Source of the DNA: Lachnospiraceae bacterium
Lineage (GTDB): Bacteria; Bacillota_A; Clostridia; Lachnospirales; Lachnospiraceae
DNA length: 7,358 bases
Assembly (NCBI GenBank): GCA_017416505.1
Contig: JAFQCI010000054.1
Location: forward strand, 1 to 7,358
Direction of reading: 5' to 3'
Shown: piece by piece, positions 1 to 7,358 of the stretch
How positions within the stretch are numbered: position 1 is the stretch's first letter
How the letters are laid out: every line of letters begins with the position of its first letter
The notes under the pieces: model-generated
The model's database searches: none
The model's input: only the letters and a program-made list of their open reading frames with translations
What the model was told of the DNA's origin: nothing
Made by a program: the position numbers and the translations under genes

Positions 1-141
1 CTGATGGCGATTGGATTGAAAGCAAAGACCAATCGGAGGAAGGCATCCGATTGGTTCAAACCGGAAATATTGGTGAAGGCATATATTTAGAGAAAGAATC
101 AAGAGCAAAGTATATTTCTGAAGATACTTTTAAACGGTTAA
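1..141 (+). repeat. Exact 141-bp terminal direct repeat, left copy
   Basis: Bases 1-141 are identical to 7218-7358. Both copies lie inside hsdS in the same frame. The repeat ends exactly at the window edges, so its true length cannot be seen. An overlap of exactly 141 bases is what a de Bruijn assembler using k=141 leaves on a circular contig (inference). A real duplicated hsdS 5' region is the alternative. Confidence 0.97.
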
Positions 142-1145
142 AGTGTACAGAGATATTCGCAGGAGATATTTTGGTTTCAAGATTACCTGAACCAGTTGGA
201 AGAGCATGTATTATTCCAGATAAAACAGAACGAATGATTACAGCGGTGGATTGTACTATATGTAGGCCTGATTCAAATTTGATTAGCAAGGAATATCTGT
301 GCTATTTCATGCGTTCAAATACATATTACACACGATTGCTTGGCAATGTTACCGGAACGACAAGAAAAAGAATTTCTAGAAAGAATTTAGGAAATGTGGA
401 ATTGAGAGTTCCGTCAAAAGAAGAACAGAAGTCGGTAGTAGAACGATTAGATTGTCTATTAAAGGTGATTGAATCAAGAGCAAAAGAATTACAATTGTTA
501 GACGACCTCATCAAAGCCCGATTTGTCGAGATGTTTGGGGATACAGTAACGAACTCTATGAACTGGGAAGAACACGTTTTGAGTGAATATATTGTTTTCC
601 TAACTTCTGGCTCACGTGGATGGGCACAGTACTTTACAGATGAGAGTGGTGAAGTGTTTATAACCATCAAAAATGTGAAGAACAATCATATTAACCTGGA
701 CAATGTGCAATACATTATGGCACCGAATAATAAAGAAGCAGAAAGAACGAAAGTGCAGGCGGGTGATTTATTAATTAGTATTACAGCTGATTTAGGAAGA
801 ACGGGAGTTGTTGATGAAGATATAGCAAGTAAGGGAGCCTATATTAATCAACATTTGTCGTTAGTAAGATTAGATAGCAGTAAAATCAGTCCTTTATATG
901 TTTCATATTTTCTAGAAACAGAAGGTGGAAAACGACAATTTGAAAGCAGAAATCAAAATGGAGTGAAAGCTGGACTGAATTTTGATGCTATTAAATCACT
1001 TAGAATATTGGTACCAGATAAAAAACTGCAAGAGGAATATTTGCAGTTTGTCAAACAAGTCGACAAATCAAAAGTTGTGATACAAAAAGCTTTGGATGAA
1101 ACACAATTACTATTTGATAGCTTAATGCAGAAATATTTTGGTTAG
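1..1145 (+). CDS. hsdS: Type I restriction-modification specificity subunit HsdS (3' 95% of the gene; 5' end lies at 7187-7217)
   Basis: HsdS gives the type I methylase/restriction complex its DNA target. The frame is open from base 1. Joined to the copy starting at 7187 it makes an uninterrupted 391-residue protein, a normal length for a two-domain HsdS. In full-length numbering, TRD1 spans about residues 1-148. The central conserved helical region is about 149-191 (EEQKSVVERLD through ARFVEMFGD), TRD2 about 192-348, and the C-terminal conserved helices about 349-391, ending FDSLMQKYFG. The central and C-terminal segments resemble each other (VPSKEEQ... / VPDKKLQ..., then a coiled helix ending in M-F/Y-FG), the expected pseudo-repeat of HsdS. 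A TTG at 51 could be mistaken for a start, but the true start is upstream. No hsdM or hsdR is in the window. The gene is followed after 12 nt by the DUF3990 gene, so the two are probably co-transcribed. Confidence 0.93.
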   Translation, partial: DGDWIESKDQSEEGIRLVQTGNIGEGIYLEKESRAKYISEDTFKRLKCTEIFAGDILVSRLPEPVGRACIIPDKTERMITAVDCTICRPDSNLISKEYLCYFMRSNTYYTRLLGNVTGTTRKRISRKNLGNVELRVPSKEEQKSVVERLDCLLKVIESRAKELQLLDDLIKARFVEMFGDTVTNSMNWEEHVLSEYIVFLTSGSRGWAQYFTDESGEVFITIKNVKNNHINLDNVQYIMAPNNKEAERTKVQAGDLLISITADLGRTGVVDEDIASKGAYINQHLSLVRLDSSKISPLYVSYFLETEGGKRQFESRNQNGVKAGLNFDAIKSLRILVPDKKLQEEYLQFVKQVDKSKVVIQKALDETQLLFDSLMQKYFG

Positions 1146-2225: not shown

Positions 2226-3038
2226 ATGGAAGAAAAAGTAGTAAGAATTATCAATGAAATGGCAGAATATCTTAATGTTTCGCAAATGAAGAAATTGCAG
2301 GAGGTATTACTGAAGACTTTTTCAGAACATGAATCTGAAAAAGTAGAAATAAGCAATCAAGACTATCTTGGGATGTTTTTGGATGCGAAAAAGATTGAAG
2401 GATGTTCAGAACGAACAATACATTATTATAGAGCCACTATTGAACGATTACTTCTCAATATTTCAACACCAATACGAAAAATTACAACAGAGGAAATAAG
2501 ACACTATCTTGTTGATTATCAGCAAATAAATAATTGTAGCAAGGTGACAGTAGATAATGTTCGACGAAATATTTCTAGCTTCTTTTCATGGTTAGAAGAA
2601 GAGGACTACATTTTAAAAAGTCCTATGAGAAGAATACATAAAATCAAGACGAAACAGCAGGTTAAGGAAACGATATCTGACGAAGCAATAGAGCAATTAA
2701 GAGATAAGTGTAATTGCTTAAGGGATTTGGCAATGATAGACTTATTATATTCTACAGGAATACGAGTAGGTGAATTAGTGAATCTGAATATTTCAGATGT
2801 GGATTTGGAAGCAAGAGAATGTGTGGTGTTTGGGAAAGGTGATAAAGAGAGAAAAGTGTATTTTGATGCAAAGGCAAAAATACATTTGCAAGAATATCTA
2901 AACAGCCGGAGTGATAGTAACCCAGCGTTGTTTGTTACATTAGATGCGCCATTTGATAGGCTGAAAATTAGCGGCGTTGAGATAAGGATGCGGAGATTGG
3001 GCAGAATGCTTAATATGGAGAAAATACATCCACACAAA

Positions 3039-3044
3039 TTCAGA
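3039..3044 (+). repeat. Left junction hexamer TTCAGA (candidate crossover site)
   Basis: TTCAGA encodes Phe272-Arg273 of the interrupted recombinase, and TTTAGA at 6502-6507 encodes the same two residues on the far side. The single C/T difference is synonymous. It suggests one copy came from the element and the other from the target, as expected for a 6-bp overlap in tyrosine recombinase exchange (inference). Confidence 0.7.
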
Positions 3045-3074
3045 AATCACATCTTTTATGAAATCCAAACTTTC
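3039..3074 (+). repeat. RIT left terminal inverted repeat (36 bp)
   Basis: It begins TTCAGAAATCACATC and ends AAATCCAAACTTTC, and is a perfect reverse complement of 6444-6479. The first six bases coincide with the junction hexamer, so the repeat runs right to the crossover on this side. On the right the matching repeat stops 22 bp short of the junction. Confidence 0.95.
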
Positions 3075-3125
3075 AATATAAAGTATACACTATTCGCTTA
3101 TTGATGACTCAAAAAGTTTGGATTT
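3061..3125. repeat. Left subterminal palindrome (13-39-13)
   Basis: AAATCCAAACTTT at 3061-3073 is repeated inverted at 3113-3125 with 39 bp between. A weaker inner pair, TCAATA/TATTGA, lies at 3073-3078 and 3099-3104. The geometry is the same as at the right end (6393-6457), which points to a recombinase-binding array. Confidence 0.85.
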
Positions 3126-3133
3126 TATTTTGA

Positions 3134-3166
3134 TAAATCACCGATGTATATTTCGGAGGTGATTTA
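3134..3166 (+). promoter_or_regulatory. Leader hairpin that buries the ritA ribosome binding site
   Basis: TAAATCACC (3134-3142) pairs with GGTGATTTA (3158-3166), a 9-bp stem that contains most of the ritA Shine-Dalgarno sequence GGAGGTGA (3155-3162). Folding would limit ritA translation. This may guard against expression from read-through host transcripts (inference). Confidence 0.6.
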
Positions 3167-3169
3167 CAA

Positions 3170-4399
3170 ATGGATATTAAAAAACTACAAGAAACTTATC
3201 CTAAACTTTTGGAATACATGACTTCTGACGATTATTCCAAGCACTATATTAGATTGTTAAAAACTGAAATCAATTGGATTCTTAACAATCACGACTACAA
3301 AGAAATTTTATCTTATGAACAAGCATGCTTCATAAGAAGTGAACAGACTTCATCTTATGACATGAAGAGAAGGTACCATCTTTTTTATGGAATATTAAAA
3401 CGCTTTGAGGAAGATAACCTATTTCCTAATCGAAGGAGACAGGAACCACTTATTAAACGAGGTTCCTATCATCTTCTTTGTCCAGAGTTTAAAGAAGTAA
3501 TTGATACCTATTGTGTTGCTGATAAAGCACGTGGTTTAAAAGAACACACGATATATGGAAATGCATCCGGTGGTTCCTGTTTTCTTCTAAAAATGCAGGA
3601 ATTAGGGCATACTTCATTATCAACTATTACAGAAGAGGATGCTCTGTCCTTCTTTGTAGGTGATGATGGGAACGCTTGGACTAGTAGCTGTTACAAAAAA
3701 GAAATTTCGGCTGTATTTAAGGCTGACTTGGGAGATTATTCAAAGGAAGCATATCGTATTCATACATATATGCCTAAAATCAGACCTAAAAGAAAAACTG
3801 TTCCATACCTTCAGTCAGAAGAGATAAAAGCTATTCATGATATCATTCAGCCGGAATGTTCTGCATTATCGCTTCGCAACAAAGCCATTGCAACGCTTTT
3901 GTTTTTTACGGGTTTAAGAGGCTGCGACATAGCAATTCTAGAGTTTAATGATATAGATTGGGATTCGGAAGAAATAAGATTAACCCAAGAAAAAACCGGA
4001 ATTAATCTAACCTTGCCATTAACTCCAACAATCGGGAATGCTATATATGATTATATATCAAATGAAAGACCTGCCAGCAGTGATACTCATATATTTTTAT
4101 CAGAGCAAAAACCATATGATCCTTTAAAGCCAAAGGCACTGTACTATATCTCTGGAAAAATCTATGATGCGGCAAATATCAGAATGAATTCTGGGGAACG
4201 TCGAGGAACTCATTTATTTCGTTATAATCTTGCAACATCATTTATTGGAAAAGGTGTCGCTAGACCGGTAATTAGTGAAACATTAGGTCATGCAGATCCT
4301 AATTCTTTGGATTACTATCTTTTTTCAGATATCATTCATCTTCGCGAATGCGCATTAAGTATCGAAAGATATCCAGTGTGTCAGGAGGTGTTTGAATAA
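3170..4399 (+). CDS. ritA: RIT element tyrosine recombinase A
   Basis: A 409-residue site-specific recombinase, the first of the trio. The N-terminal part (about 1-205) carries an extended DNA-binding region. The catalytic domain (about 210-400) has all expected residues: R250 in FFTGLRGCDI, K275 in TQEKTG, H348 and R351 in GTHLFRYNLA, H374 in LGHADPNS, and nucleophile Y383 nine residues later. It is therefore predicted to be active in strand cleavage. ATG 3170 is preceded by GGAGGTGA seven bases upstream, part of which is in a hairpin. The TAA stop overlaps the ritB ATG by one base (TAATG), implying translational coupling. RIT proteins are thought to act together on the element ends; the division of labour is not known from the sequence. 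Its DNA-binding half is longer than that of a minimal XerD protein. Confidence 0.93.
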   Translation: MDIKKLQETYPKLLEYMTSDDYSKHYIRLLKTEINWILNNHDYKEILSYEQACFIRSEQTSSYDMKRRYHLFYGILKRFEEDNLFPNRRRQEPLIKRGSYHLLCPEFKEVIDTYCVADKARGLKEHTIYGNASGGSCFLLKMQELGHTSLSTITEEDALSFFVGDDGNAWTSSCYKKEISAVFKADLGDYSKEAYRIHTYMPKIRPKRKTVPYLQSEEIKAIHDIIQPECSALSLRNKAIATLLFFTGLRGCDIAILEFNDIDWDSEEIRLTQEKTGINLTLPLTPTIGNAIYDYISNERPASSDTHIFLSEQKPYDPLKPKALYYISGKIYDAANIRMNSGERRGTHLFRYNLATSFIGKGVARPVISETLGHADPNSLDYYLFSDIIHLRECALSIERYPVCQEVFE

Positions 4400-5367
4400 T
4401 GATAGAGTATATATCTGGATTTTCTGAACTAATAAATAGATTTGTATCCTATCGGAATGCTTCGGGTTCATGGAATGATATATCATATGGGATGAATCTA
4501 AAATTCTTTGACCATTATTGTGAAGAAAAATATCCTGGTCAGGAATTACAGCAAAAGATGGTTAATGAATGGTGTACTAAAAGAGACACCGAAAGCAATC
4601 GCTCTTACAATTGTAGAATTCTAGTAATACAGGCTTTCATAACTTATTTAAGAGATAGAAATCTTACACACGTTATATCTCCAGCATCACTAAAGGAAGA
4701 AAAGAAACAGTATATTCCACATGCATTTACAGATGAAGAATTGTGTAGATTTTTTTATGAATGTGATCATATAAATCCGTCTCAAAAGCATGGTCGTGTA
4801 TCAGCAATTAGAAAACTAACCTGTCCTGTATTTTTCAGACTTTTATATAGTAGTGGTATTCGAACAACAGAGGCACGTTTGTTAAAGGTTGAGGATGTTG
4901 ACCTTACCCATGGAGTTTTAAATATAAGAGCTTCAAAAGGATATGATCAACACTACGTGGCTCTGCATGAATCTATTATACCGGTTCTTTCTAAATATGA
5001 TGATGCAATTAAACAGTATGAACCTAATAGAACTTATTTTTTTGAATCATACAAAGGCAATCATTATACACGTGACTGGGTGCAGGATAACTTTGAAGCG
5101 TTATGGAAAAAGGCGAATGGATCTGTAAAGGCAGTTGCATACGATTTAAGGCATCACTATGCAATAACAAATATAAATAGTTGGGATGGAGATGCTTTTG
5201 AATTTGATGATAAACTTCATTATCTCTCAAAATCCATGGGACACAGATGGATAGAATCTACTTTGTATTATTATTCGATAGTACCAGGATTGGCTGAAAC
5301 AATTCTGGAAAAGACAGAGTCTGGATTCAATGAGATTGTGCCGGAGGTGGATTATGAAGAAGAATAA
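4399..5367 (+). CDS. ritB: RIT element tyrosine recombinase B, with Tyr replacing the box II His
   Basis: A 322-residue tyrosine recombinase, second in the trio. The core-binding domain spans about 5-95 (SELINRFVSYRNASGSWND and onward) and the catalytic domain about 105-305. R155 is in YSSGIRTTEARLL, K180 in ASKGYDQHYV, R251 in AYDLRHHYAI, H282 in SMGHRWIES and nucleophile Y291 nine residues on. The usual His three residues before R251 is Tyr248, a substitution seen in some family members that may change proton transfer rather than abolish activity. The ATG at 4399 shares a base with the ritA stop and has AGGAGG at 4383-4388, ten bases upstream. It overlaps ritC by 14 nt, so the three genes are probably made from one transcript in fixed ratio. 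Confidence 0.92.
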   Translation: MIEYISGFSELINRFVSYRNASGSWNDISYGMNLKFFDHYCEEKYPGQELQQKMVNEWCTKRDTESNRSYNCRILVIQAFITYLRDRNLTHVISPASLKEEKKQYIPHAFTDEELCRFFYECDHINPSQKHGRVSAIRKLTCPVFFRLLYSSGIRTTEARLLKVEDVDLTHGVLNIRASKGYDQHYVALHESIIPVLSKYDDAIKQYEPNRTYFFESYKGNHYTRDWVQDNFEALWKKANGSVKAVAYDLRHHYAITNINSWDGDAFEFDDKLHYLSKSMGHRWIESTLYYYSIVPGLAETILEKTESGFNEIVPEVDYEEE

Positions 5368-6388
5368 TGAAGCCTACCAGCTTGCAAAATATATATCGGA
5401 TTTTTTAAATGATTATGCACCTTCTTTTCTTACAACCAGCCAATGTACAATAAAATCTTACAAAGATGCGTTGATTTTATATGTGACATACTTAGCTGAA
5501 AAAGAGATAACACCGAATCAATTCAACCGTAAATATTTTGAAAGAGATTATATCGAAGGCTGGATAAGTTGGCTGAAAGAAAAAAGAGGATGCTGTCCAG
5601 ATACATGTAATGTTCGCCTAGCATCTATCCGTGTATTTCTGGAATATCTTGGTGCAAGGGATGTTGAGTTATTGTATTTATACCAACAGGCCAAGCAGGT
5701 CAAGCGTCAAAAAACAAGCAAGAAAAAAGTGACAGGATTAACCAGATATGCCGTGAGTGCTATGTTAGAAGCGCCAGATTTAAATACCAGAACAGGAAAA
5801 AGAGACATTGTGTTTCTTACATTGCTTTATGCCACAGCAGGCAGATTAGATGAGATTCGTTCCATAAAAATATCTCATATAAATTTATCAGCAGACAAGC
5901 CCTATATTAATCTACATGGGAAAGGTGATAAAATCAGAACCTCATACTTACTGCCACGAGCAGTTGCTCATTTGAAAGTATATCTTAAAGAGTTTCATGG
6001 AGATGCCCCCAAGCCAGATGACTATTTATTCTATTCAAGAGTTGGAAGCAATAAGGGAAAACTCACTGAAGCAGCTCTTGATAAAAGAATAAAAAAATAT
6101 GCAAAGAAAGCTCATGAAAAATGTCCAAATGTTCCATTGAATACACATGCCCATCAATTTCGCCATGCCAAGGCTTCTCATTGGATCGAAGATGGATTAA
6201 GTGTCGTTCAGGTAAGCTTTTTACTTGGACATTCGAATCTAGAAACTACCATGAAATATCTGGACATTACTACAGAAGATAAAATCAAGGCTCTTTCAAC
6301 ACTTGAAAATGAAGCCGAGAAAAAAGTTTCGAAGAAATGGAAAAAAACAGATGGCTCATTAATGGATTTTTGTGGATTAAAAAGATAA
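5354..6388 (+). CDS. ritC: RIT element tyrosine recombinase C
   Basis: A 344-residue tyrosine recombinase, last in the trio. It has a core-binding domain at about 10-115 (LAKYISDFLNDYAPSFL through FLEYLGARDVELL) and a basic linker KRQKTSKKK at 118-125. The catalytic domain has R164 (ATAGRLDEI), K190 (HGKGDKIRT), H267 and R270 (HAHQFRHAKA), H293 (LGHSNLETT) and nucleophile Y302, a complete set. The tail after 310 is charged and helical. The frame is open from 5330, but ATG 5354 has GGAGG at 5343-5347 with a six-base spacer and is the better start. It overlaps the end of ritB by 14 nt. The stop is five bases before the right subterminal palindrome; no T-rich terminator follows, so transcription may run into the host gene remnant. 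Confidence 0.93.
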   Translation: MKKNNEAYQLAKYISDFLNDYAPSFLTTSQCTIKSYKDALILYVTYLAEKEITPNQFNRKYFERDYIEGWISWLKEKRGCCPDTCNVRLASIRVFLEYLGARDVELLYLYQQAKQVKRQKTSKKKVTGLTRYAVSAMLEAPDLNTRTGKRDIVFLTLLYATAGRLDEIRSIKISHINLSADKPYINLHGKGDKIRTSYLLPRAVAHLKVYLKEFHGDAPKPDDYLFYSRVGSNKGKLTEAALDKRIKKYAKKAHEKCPNVPLNTHAHQFRHAKASHWIEDGLSVVQVSFLLGHSNLETTMKYLDITTEDKIKALSTLENEAEKKVSKKWKKTDGSLMDFCGLKR

Positions 6389-6392
6389 AATA

Positions 6393-6457
6393 AAATCCAA
6401 ACTTTAATCATCGGCGAATGGCGTGATTTAGTGTTATTCGCCGGAAAGTTTGGATTT
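6393..6457. repeat. Right subterminal palindrome (13-39-13) with inner hairpin
   Basis: AAATCCAAACTTT at 6393-6405 is inverted at 6445-6457, again with exactly 39 bp between. An inner perfect stem, CGGCGAAT (6412-6419) with ATTCGCCG (6436-6443), makes a strong cruciform or hairpin. There is no T run, so it is not a normal terminator. The right half overlaps the terminal inverted repeat. Confidence 0.87.
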
Positions 6458-6479
6458 CATAAAAGATGTGATTTCTGAA
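6444..6479 (-). repeat. RIT right terminal inverted repeat (36 bp)
   Basis: A perfect reverse complement of 3039-3074, reading GAAAGTTTGGATTTC and so on to TTTCTGAA on the plus strand. It lies 22 bp inside the right junction hexamer. Confidence 0.95.
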
Positions 6480-6508
6480 CAAATCCAAACTTTTGGATTT
6501 GTTTAGAA
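6473..6508. repeat. Right-end core palindrome, candidate recombination site
   Basis: Arms TTCTGAACAAATCCAAA (6473-6489) and TTTGGATTTGTTTAGAA (6492-6508) are inverted around a central CT with one mismatch. The mismatch falls at the C/T base that differs between the two junction hexamers. It covers the right junction and looks like a tyrosine recombinase core site with paired binding arms. Confidence 0.75.
6502..6507 (+). repeat. Right junction hexamer TTTAGA
   Basis: The partner of TTCAGA at 3039-3044. Host recombinase codons Phe-Arg are followed immediately by Arg-Thr-Met-Ala-Thr, in frame with the severed 3' end. Confidence 0.7.
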
Positions 6509-6657
6509 GAACGATGGCGACGAGGGCAATTGATAAAGGAATGCCAATAGAGCAGGTGCAAAAGCTCTTGGGACATTCGCAGATTGACACGACTATGCAG
6601 TATGCAATCGTAAATCAAACAAATGTAAAGACATCTCATCAGAAATTTATTGCGTAA
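6502..6657 (+). pseudogene. XerD-like tyrosine recombinase, severed 3' end
   Basis: This is the continuation of the gene that begins at 2226. After the shared Phe-Arg it reads RRTMATRAIDKGMPIEQVQ, then LLGHSQIDTTMQY, and ends HQKFIA with TAA at 6655-6657. In reconstructed numbering it supplies H296 and nucleophile Y305, exactly nine residues apart as in XerD, and completes a 322-residue enzyme. It has no start codon or ribosome site of its own at the junction. An internal ATG (6514) exists but lacks a convincing ribosome site. No decay is seen (no stops or frameshifts), which suggests a recent insertion or a reversible state. Confidence 0.92.
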
Positions 6658-7186: not shown

Positions 7187-7358
7187 ATGAGATTAAAAGA
7201 TGTATGTACTGTCTTTACTGATGGCGATTGGATTGAAAGCAAAGACCAATCGGAGGAAGGCATCCGATTGGTTCAAACCGGAAATATTGGTGAAGGCATA
7301 TATTTAGAGAAAGAATCAAGAGCAAAGTATATTTCTGAAGATACTTTTAAACGGTTAA
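7187..7358 (+). CDS. hsdS: HsdS specificity subunit, 5' end (continues at base 1 if the molecule is circular)
   Basis: ATG 7187 opens MRLKDVCTVFTDGDWIESK, a typical HsdS N-terminus entering TRD1, and the frame is still open at the window end. From 7218 on it is identical to bases 1-141, in the same frame. Joining it to base 1 (7187-7217 plus 1-1145) gives 1176 nt, 391 residues and a stop, with no break. A weak ribosome site (CAGGGA) lies about ten bases upstream. If the repeat is instead a second hsdS copy, its later TRD could differ from the first; the window cannot tell. No hsdM precedes it, which is unusual because hsdS normally follows hsdM closely. Confidence 0.92.
   Translation, partial: MRLKDVCTVFTDGDWIESKDQSEEGIRLVQTGNIGEGIYLEKESRAKYISEDTFKRL
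7218..7358 (+). repeat. Exact 141-bp terminal direct repeat, right copy
   Basis: Identical to 1-141. See the left copy for interpretation. Confidence 0.97.

Follow-up and report, generated by a model that had tools for sequence, protein, structure and literature searches.

The window analysed here, a 7358-nt stretch of DNA from a Lachnospiraceae bacterium (contig JAFQCI010000054.1), carries on its plus strand an hsdS gene, a DUF3990 gene, a small open reading frame (ORF) without a Pfam match and a tyrosine recombinase (YR) gene that is split in two. Between the halves of this YR gene, hereafter the host gene, lie three further, overlapping YR genes with perfect 36-bp inverted repeats at both ends (Table 1). 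The inserted unit is a complete RIT (recombinase-in-trio) element, 3463 bp long when counted with one core, and it interrupts its host at the codons of the HxxR box, a catalytic motif of YRs.

The host ORF starts with the ATG at 2226 and runs through ATA CAT CCA CAC AAA TTC AGA (IHPHKFR) to 3044, with His270 at 3033-3035, Lys at 3036-3038, Phe at 3039-3041 and Arg273 at 3042-3044. The frame then enters the element and meets a stop at 3104, ahead of the gene part that encodes the catalytic Tyr. Host sequence picks up again at TTTAGA (6502-6507; TTT AGA AGA ACG ATG, or FRRTM) and ends with the TAA at 6655-6657; by Pfam, the two halves correspond to PF00589 positions 6-134 and 132-170. The closest of the relatives listed, P0121 (322 aa, 96% identical), aligns with both halves free of gaps and reads ...IHPHKFRRTMATRAIDKGMPIEQVQK... 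across the join, and HKFR stands at the join position in 118 of the 120 relatives listed. Because relatives of the host gene read through the join with both halves, the insertion is exact and conservative, and nothing was lost or duplicated apart from a 5-bp core. A preliminary description of this DNA had the host gene cut straight after His270-Lys-Phe-Arg273, which the sequence and P0121 bear out. It also had a crossover hexamer encoding Phe and Arg; the site stands but the size does not, as relatives give a 5-bp core (TTCAG on the left, TTTAG on the right), and the 22-bp palindrome at the right end (6480-6501) is an addition to that account. It is very likely, judging from these junctions, that a complete RIT entered an hsdS-associated YR gene by site-specific recombination, with the DNA of the HxxR box as its attachment site.

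Table 1. Features of the window, with the evidence for each.
Feature	Position	Strand	Evidence
hsdS, type I restriction specificity subunit	3..1145	+	PF01420 1.3e-19
Host YR gene, 5' part, through Arg273 of HKFR	2226..3044	+	PF00589 5.2e-23; P0121 96% identical over 2226-3041
HxxR box codons CAC AAA TTC AGA (His270-Lys-Phe-Arg273)	3033..3044	+	sequence
Plain-end core S, TTCAG; the host's own core by the S/O rule	3039..3043	+	comparison with relatives
Left terminal inverted repeat, 36 bp including core	3039..3074	+	repeat search, 100% complementary
Inner left repeat box (AAAGTTTGGATTTTATTTT)	3113..3131	+	repeat search
ritA, 409 aa YR (HLFR...LGH...Y)	3170..4399	+	PF00589 2.5e-21
ritB, 322 aa YR (YDLR...MGH...Y)	4399..5367	+	PF00589 7e-16
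ritC, YR (HQFR...LGH...Y)	5354..6388	+	PF00589 2e-25
Inner right repeat box	6387..6405	-	repeat search
Right terminal inverted repeat, 36 bp, including inner core I (6475-6479)	6444..6479	-	repeat search
22-bp palindrome CAAATCCAAACTTTTGGATTTG, inner to outer core	6480..6501	.	relatives; 22-bp arm in 35/37 loci
Outer core O, TTTAG; element-borne by the S/O rule	6502..6506	+	comparison with relatives
Host YR gene, 3' part (FRRTMATRAIDKGM...LGH...Y...stop)	6502..6657	+	PF00589 3.2e-9; matched by 120/120 listed relatives

The preliminary description had further proposed the HxxR motif as a general target, to be checked by collecting relatives through rit similarity, joining their flanks and comparing HxxR boxes with chance. 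The proposal passed this check, within the limit that half of the junctions are off-pattern. Relatives were gathered with 31 RitB sequences, giving the best 80 of 137 genome-contig loci together with five viral-contig loci, and element ends were located through their repeats. At a plain end (S-end) host DNA directly touches the repeat, and a P-end is a palindrome end. Four end types were set by eye (palindrome in L012, L025 and L067; plain in L073), and ends were placed by hand where the pattern missed them (L003, L028, L072-L074, L084, L085). Ends at a contig edge or not located were left out, and removal of identical flanks and of those shorter than 11 nt left 64 S-ends. The strict pattern [C/T]A[C/T]-NNN-[C/T]TN-[A/C]G stood in register at 26 of the 64, where a background scan of these flanks gave 384 hits in 434,346 positions (0.088%). 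With the third codon widened to I, V and M ([H/Y]-x-[L/F/I/V]-R), 32 of the 64 matched, against 746 of 434,346 (0.17%; nominal P 6e-71). PF00589 was matched by 22 of 47 S-flank ORFs, taken as the longest stop-free frames touching the junction, of about 46 aa or more, with shorter ones and copies left out and the in-register frame used for L010, where two frames tied. Of the P-flank ORFs, 9 of 32 matched.

The recurrence is also evident when the flanks are joined. A script joined the flanks of 37 loci that have one S-end and one P-end, the window and L095 included, and in 22 of them the joined flanks run in frame through a YR HxxR-type box, with no stop in any of the 22 joined YR windows. Examples are HSLRHAFASHL (L003), HMFRRTRATNL (L009), YDLRHRFASGI (L030), HDLRHSFSVHS (L034), HAFRHSFATHM (L067), HIFRHTFATLM (L081) and, in the window, HKFRRTMATRA; box variants are YxxR in L030 and L041 and HxxK in L077. 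Three loci (L060, L063, L069) are copies of one context, which leaves 20 joins, including L095, where the same host gene is entered in the other orientation. Most of the compared pairs of YR host ORFs are less than 40% identical; the closest long pairs reach 46-55% over 67-200 aa and some short stretches 46-64%, L095 standing outside this comparison. This diversity of host genes is a better argument than the P values. YR-targeting elements were found in viral contigs and in Bacillota, Actinomycetota, Bacteroidota, Spirochaetota, Myxococcota, Thermodesulfobacteriota and Fidelibacterota, the last assigned solely from reading the flanks on the palindrome side. The flanks of close relatives did not fall in unrelated genes with no shared core, an outcome that had been named in advance as contrary to the proposal.

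Several observations weigh against YR genes as the general target or against the mechanism proposed below. One of the 32 pattern matches (L082) lies in a primase-like gene by Pfam and forms a thirteenth non-YR target; the other 32 S-ends were sorted with Pfam or through reading of the sequence, and 12 fall in other identified genes, three in degenerate HxxR-like boxes (L038 right, L053, L077) and 17 have no assigned gene. Common descent of the element links the loci, so that P values are nominal and overstate independence. Close RitB proteins (E <= 1e-100) occur in 6 of 397 genomes of the family of L001 (a second locus of the window element, described below), too few for a large held-out sample, and four close-clade loci were fetched after the hypothesis had been formed. 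L104 has a YR host by PF00589, and L103 has palindrome ends on both sides followed by two YR C-termini by reading, with no Pfam match for these 53- and 64-aa pieces; short host remnants are often without one. The remaining two are unfavourable, with a TnpV-like junction by reading in L099 and no element ends found in L101. A regular-expression search of the fetched loci found no circle junction, and no palindrome end with a CG centre and the TTATCCAAAC repeat was found in viral contigs, a weak test of one exact end type that the known viral copies lack. Finally, three genomes contain 174, 130 and 214 copies of the motif CAYNNNYTNMGNCAY (107, 147 and 135 for the reversed-pattern control) and 15, 53 and 24 PF00589 matches. 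Given this abundance and the few YR domains, either the enzymes read more sequence or selection removes other insertions. Since half of the 64 junctions fail the pattern, YR targeting is not universal; among the targets identified for this clade it is the most frequent, with others beside it.

The abundance of a short motif (130-214 copies against 15-53 YR domains) is also what a survivorship explanation would draw on, in which RIT insertion occurs wherever a site matches loosely and selection tolerates the insertions in YR or mobile genes. The identified targets do appear to be dispensable or mobile, and some of the 17 junctions without an assigned gene may be intergenic. Survivorship is nonetheless improbable, as the same codon is used at 32 of 64 junctions where the same flanks predict 0.17%, and HxxR codons would make up a tiny share of dispensable DNA.

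The 12 other identified genes are five TnpV, two IstB, two DruA, one Mutator transposase, one Y1-like and one MutS-like. Across the loci, TnpV targets were recognized by Pfam in L025 and L026 and by motif in L004, L006, L008 and L012; IstB is cut in L057 (left) and L071, DruA in L068 and L078, a Mutator transposase in L070, a CHC2 primase-like gene in L082 and a MutS-I-like gene in L084. In L027, a frame that we take to be Y1-transposase-like is cut, by reading, directly before NHVHLL, and the 44-aa piece has no Pfam match. The 17 junctions without an assigned gene include eight of group G3 (the others being L020, L028 twice, L051, L066, L073, L074 and L085 twice). No gene family was found for the G3 target (L011, L013-L016, L018, L019, L029; L014 placed by tree only). 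The G3 elements form a sub-clade with 100/100 support and share an insertion site like TGTGGGAATGTGTATAAC; similar TGTGGG(A/T)A stretches repeat nearby, by eye. In a RitB tree of 95 rows, of which 26 have no target label and others are labelled partly by reading, YR targets are spread over the two halves of the main clade (87 rows), and TnpV, G3, DruA and IstB targets sit in sub-clades that have support. It is plausible that a YR target stood near the root of the main clade.

More distant RITs have further targets. In L090 an ArdC gene (PF08401) is cut inside HELTH. Two DDE (rve) transposases are joined at ...KIERWF (L113) and ...KGKIERVF (L120), at a K-(G)-x-I-E motif whose Glu is presumably the catalytic residue of these transposases. 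A ParA-like ATPase (L107) and an amidoligase (L109) were identified on both sides and DUF4314 in L112. L091 has an IS66 transposase by Pfam on one side, its other flank being 60 nt long and a poor continuation of the family; the joint is provisional for the YhcG nucleases of L092 and L106 and for L108, which has a group II intron reverse transcriptase on one side. Such targets would fit RITs as motif-homing predators of mobile DNA, with the attachment site of each lineage on one invariant, often catalytic motif, a generalization to which we give an even chance. In this reading, HxxR of YRs, HUH of Y1 transposases, the catalytic Glu of rve DDE transposases and HExxH of ArdC would all serve in this way, recombinases of other RITs would be among the prey, landing would disable the target and precise exit would restore it. 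Separately, a RIT at about 7111 of Cupriavidus necator pHG1 (L093) lies in a gene annotated as a site-specific integrase and splits ...STTE/RYLGY..., without a Pfam match; this is perhaps the Tyr box of that recombinase.

The two ends of these elements differ. Going outward from the repeat, the P-end has an inner core of 5 bp, a palindrome made from the same AATCCAAAC box as the repeat, and an outer core of 5 bp, beyond which host sequence resumes. The palindrome measures 22 bp in 35 of 37 loci and 24 bp in L070 and L073, under a script that considered even lengths of 20, 22 and 24 only. The plain-side core restores the Arg codon in 21 of 22 joins (Lys in L077), whereas the outer core does so in 18 of 22 (Ser in L010 and L030, a stop in L095, Lys in L077). 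Because Arg restoration favours the plain-side core, the plain side holds the target's own core (S) and the outer core (O) is borne by the element, three loci (L010, L030, L095) discriminating between the two. The S-end occurs on the ritA side in 15 of 22 YR loci and on the ritC side in 7, and the orientation of the element is therefore free. In the Salegentibacter chromosome record, the element of L095 is inverted relative to L060, L063 and L069 in the same YR codons; 3439 bp are identical and the cores are swapped, as expected of one circle using either of two cores. No solitary palindrome was found in the Salegentibacter genome in a search allowing up to one mismatch. Some loci have plain ends on both sides (L033, L038, L044, L046, L057, L061, also L013 and L019), the first six lying between two convergent target genes, and others have palindrome ends on both sides (L007, L103). 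These are possibly reciprocal products of crossing-over between oppositely oriented RITs; deletion via a second core, an earlier idea for them, may also apply, and crossing-over accounts for both kinds.

The element, its exact insertion point, the recurrence at the same codons of many unrelated YR genes in both orientations and the anatomy of palindrome and cores are all as read from sequence, and they suggest a mechanism. The attachment site would be DNA encoding the HxxR catalytic box, about CAY-NNN-YTNMG-NCAY. A putative circular form would carry a joint with two inverted core sites, in which AATCCAAAC boxes surround a 5-bp core and share the 22-bp palindrome; with a palindrome between two 5-bp cores, the circle could integrate by either core. 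The RIT recombinases, whose individual roles are conjectural, would act on this circle, and either core would recombine with the L/F-R codons of the target, giving insertion either way round. The plain side would retain the target's core, and the palindrome side would receive the core of the circle. Insertion truncates the host YR before its catalytic Tyr, presumably with loss of activity. The core takes in the L/F codon and the first and second bases of Arg, so an exact excision would as a rule bring back both frame and Arg. Excision and reinsertion need not be the route; a copy-out/copy-in process of the kind proposed for SEs, in which the donor keeps its copy and a circle with one flanking core moves, is a real if tentative possibility. 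The S/O core rule matches the "fingerprint/footprint" rule of SEs, which the available part of PMC10214605 also states for Tn554-related elements. Several identical copies in one chromosome point the same way, although duplication of host and element together could also have produced them, because their flanks are near identical too.

RIT elements (ritA-ritB-ritC) were reportedly described by Van Houdt in 2009, and a paper by Ricker from 2013 is said to be the other main account. The window element has their traits: ritA, ritB and ritC are adjacent on the same strand, overlapping by 1 nt (ritA/ritB) and 14 nt (ritB/ritC, with the ATG at 5354 as the likelier ritC start in a longest ORF that begins at 5330); a possible R-HxxR-H-Y set is seen in the translations of all three, with YDLR replacing HxxR in RitB; and the 36-bp terminal inverted repeats (TIRs) and length of 3463 bp agree with about 34 bp and about 3.5 kb. 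The inner boxes form a second perfect inverted pair of 19 bp. No fourth ORF of at least 80 aa lies within the TIRs, so there is no TnpC/Srap-like accessory gene and no ginD equivalent. Of 2244 candidate proteins, 1732 matched RitB at E <= 0.001, and the RitB relatives include the RIT-rich plasmid pHG1 (26% identity).

In the accessible parts of PMC3414803 and PMC2864759, RITs likewise have three tandem overlapping YR genes of about 410, 320 and 350 aa, a length of about 3.45 kb, TIRs of about 34-36 bp, a palindrome by one end and insertions within mobile-element genes. The insertions given there are in IS66 tnpA, a Tn6049-type transposase and radC, with no common rule stated in those parts; unlike these, the clade studied here has the HxxR box of YR genes as its commonest identified target. 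RitA, RitB and RitC subgroups are defined in PMC8138268 (consulted in part), and a comparative table in PMC10214605, likewise seen in part, enters RIT target specificity as not tested. According to the same partial source, the Tn554 family and SEs resemble the window element in having multiple YRs, fixed targets and the target core on one side with the circle core on the other. Unlike the window element, they carry extra genes (tnpC/srap, tfp), the core of SEs is 6 bp rather than 5 bp, and a palindrome with two usable cores is not described for them in the parts of PMC10214605 consulted. The window element works like Tn554 and SEs in its core rule (L010, L030, L095) and is not a member of that group. 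GInts, in the part of PMC5385486 consulted, also have a run of three genes that encode recombinases or similar proteins; unlike the window element, they have a fourth essential gene, ginD (PMC10214605, in part), without an equivalent ORF of at least 80 aa here.

No target rule for RITs was found in the literature searched, and a statement on YR targets may stand in Van Houdt 2009 or Ricker 2013. Invariant active-site codons are also a dependable landing site for homing introns and inteins, which splice out and spare the host gene. Unlike these, the RIT leaves its host gene truncated. Recognition of YR catalytic codons by a whole clade would explain how one element finds a site in almost any genome. 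Such RITs could naturally hold integrases, hsdS shufflers and other RITs in check, and the target rule supplies a testable attB, predicts where RITs are located and offers a set of recombinases that recognize coding motifs.

Whether killing the rival pays is a separate matter. Disabling another recombinase might itself be the selected benefit, by fixing a rival element in place or by blocking excision of the island that carries the RIT. Host YRs are severed before the catalytic Tyr. Of the YR-host loci, 20 have a host-side flank longer than 1.2 kb, and in 11 of these at least one further same-strand YR gene lies beside the victim (L009, L024, L030, L032, L033, L034, L040, L050, the L060 family, L061 right and L072), several forming trios. 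In L033 the gene hit by the RIT is a ritB, which shares 47-49% identity with five listed RitB proteins; a RitA-like frame lies upstream of it. However, the remaining 9 of the 20 loci showed no such neighbour, none being found by the YR profile in the window, L003, L067 or L081; the same profile did not pick up the host genes themselves in L059, L077 and L104. Moreover, a landing site that is conserved, abundant and dispensable yields the same pattern without any benefit from killing, and a selected advantage is rather unlikely.

The window element recurs, 99.94% identical over 3454 nt, in L001, a Lachnospiraceae metagenome-assembled genome (MAG) from goat cecum, where it lies in a different YR gene, again after HKFR. 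No movement of the element was observed, and it was probably active recently. The right end of the L001 contig is an inverted copy of its left flank, an assembly fault that leaves one usable flank. This fault, and the closure of the window contig by a 141-nt overlap, might suggest an assembly artefact or a lone accident, but the junctions are internal to the contig and the HxxR arrangement recurs in the complete genome of Lentibacillus (NZ_CP035925.1; L034) and in the Salegentibacter MAG chromosome record CP051246.1 (L060-L069), which refutes it for practical purposes. Three other contigs (L017, L043, L048) are nearly all RIT; their titles give assembler coverages of 2251x, 1326x and 462x, and they are perhaps collapsed multi-copy elements.

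By analogy with hsdS-shuffling recombinases such as PsrA, the host YR is probably an hsdS-switching enzyme, and the insertion probably froze this hsdS-associated recombinase of the phase-variation type. Among 200 genomes sampled from the L001 family, 36 have a match to the host gene at E <= 1e-30, and some of these matches are broken or partial. Of four loci viewed more widely, three (L135-L137) have the relative between two hsdS genes; in the fourth (L138) it comes after an hsdS gene and a DUF3990 gene with 81% identity, the order also seen in the window. The identical 141-nt ends of the window (1-141 and 7218-7358) show that the contig was closed through an assembler overlap, and the 5' end of hsdS lies at 7187-7358, across the contig joint (direct repeat in the window). 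This closure possibly stems from two similar hsdS genes flanking the host YR, and a real circle is not implied. The DUF3990 gene (PF13151, 4.8e-52) and an overlapping ORF without a family occupy positions 1158-2080. The DUF3990 protein has a weak ADP-ribosyltransferase-like match, under its cut-off, and the two genes look like a two-gene pair of the toxin-antitoxin type within the hsdS locus.

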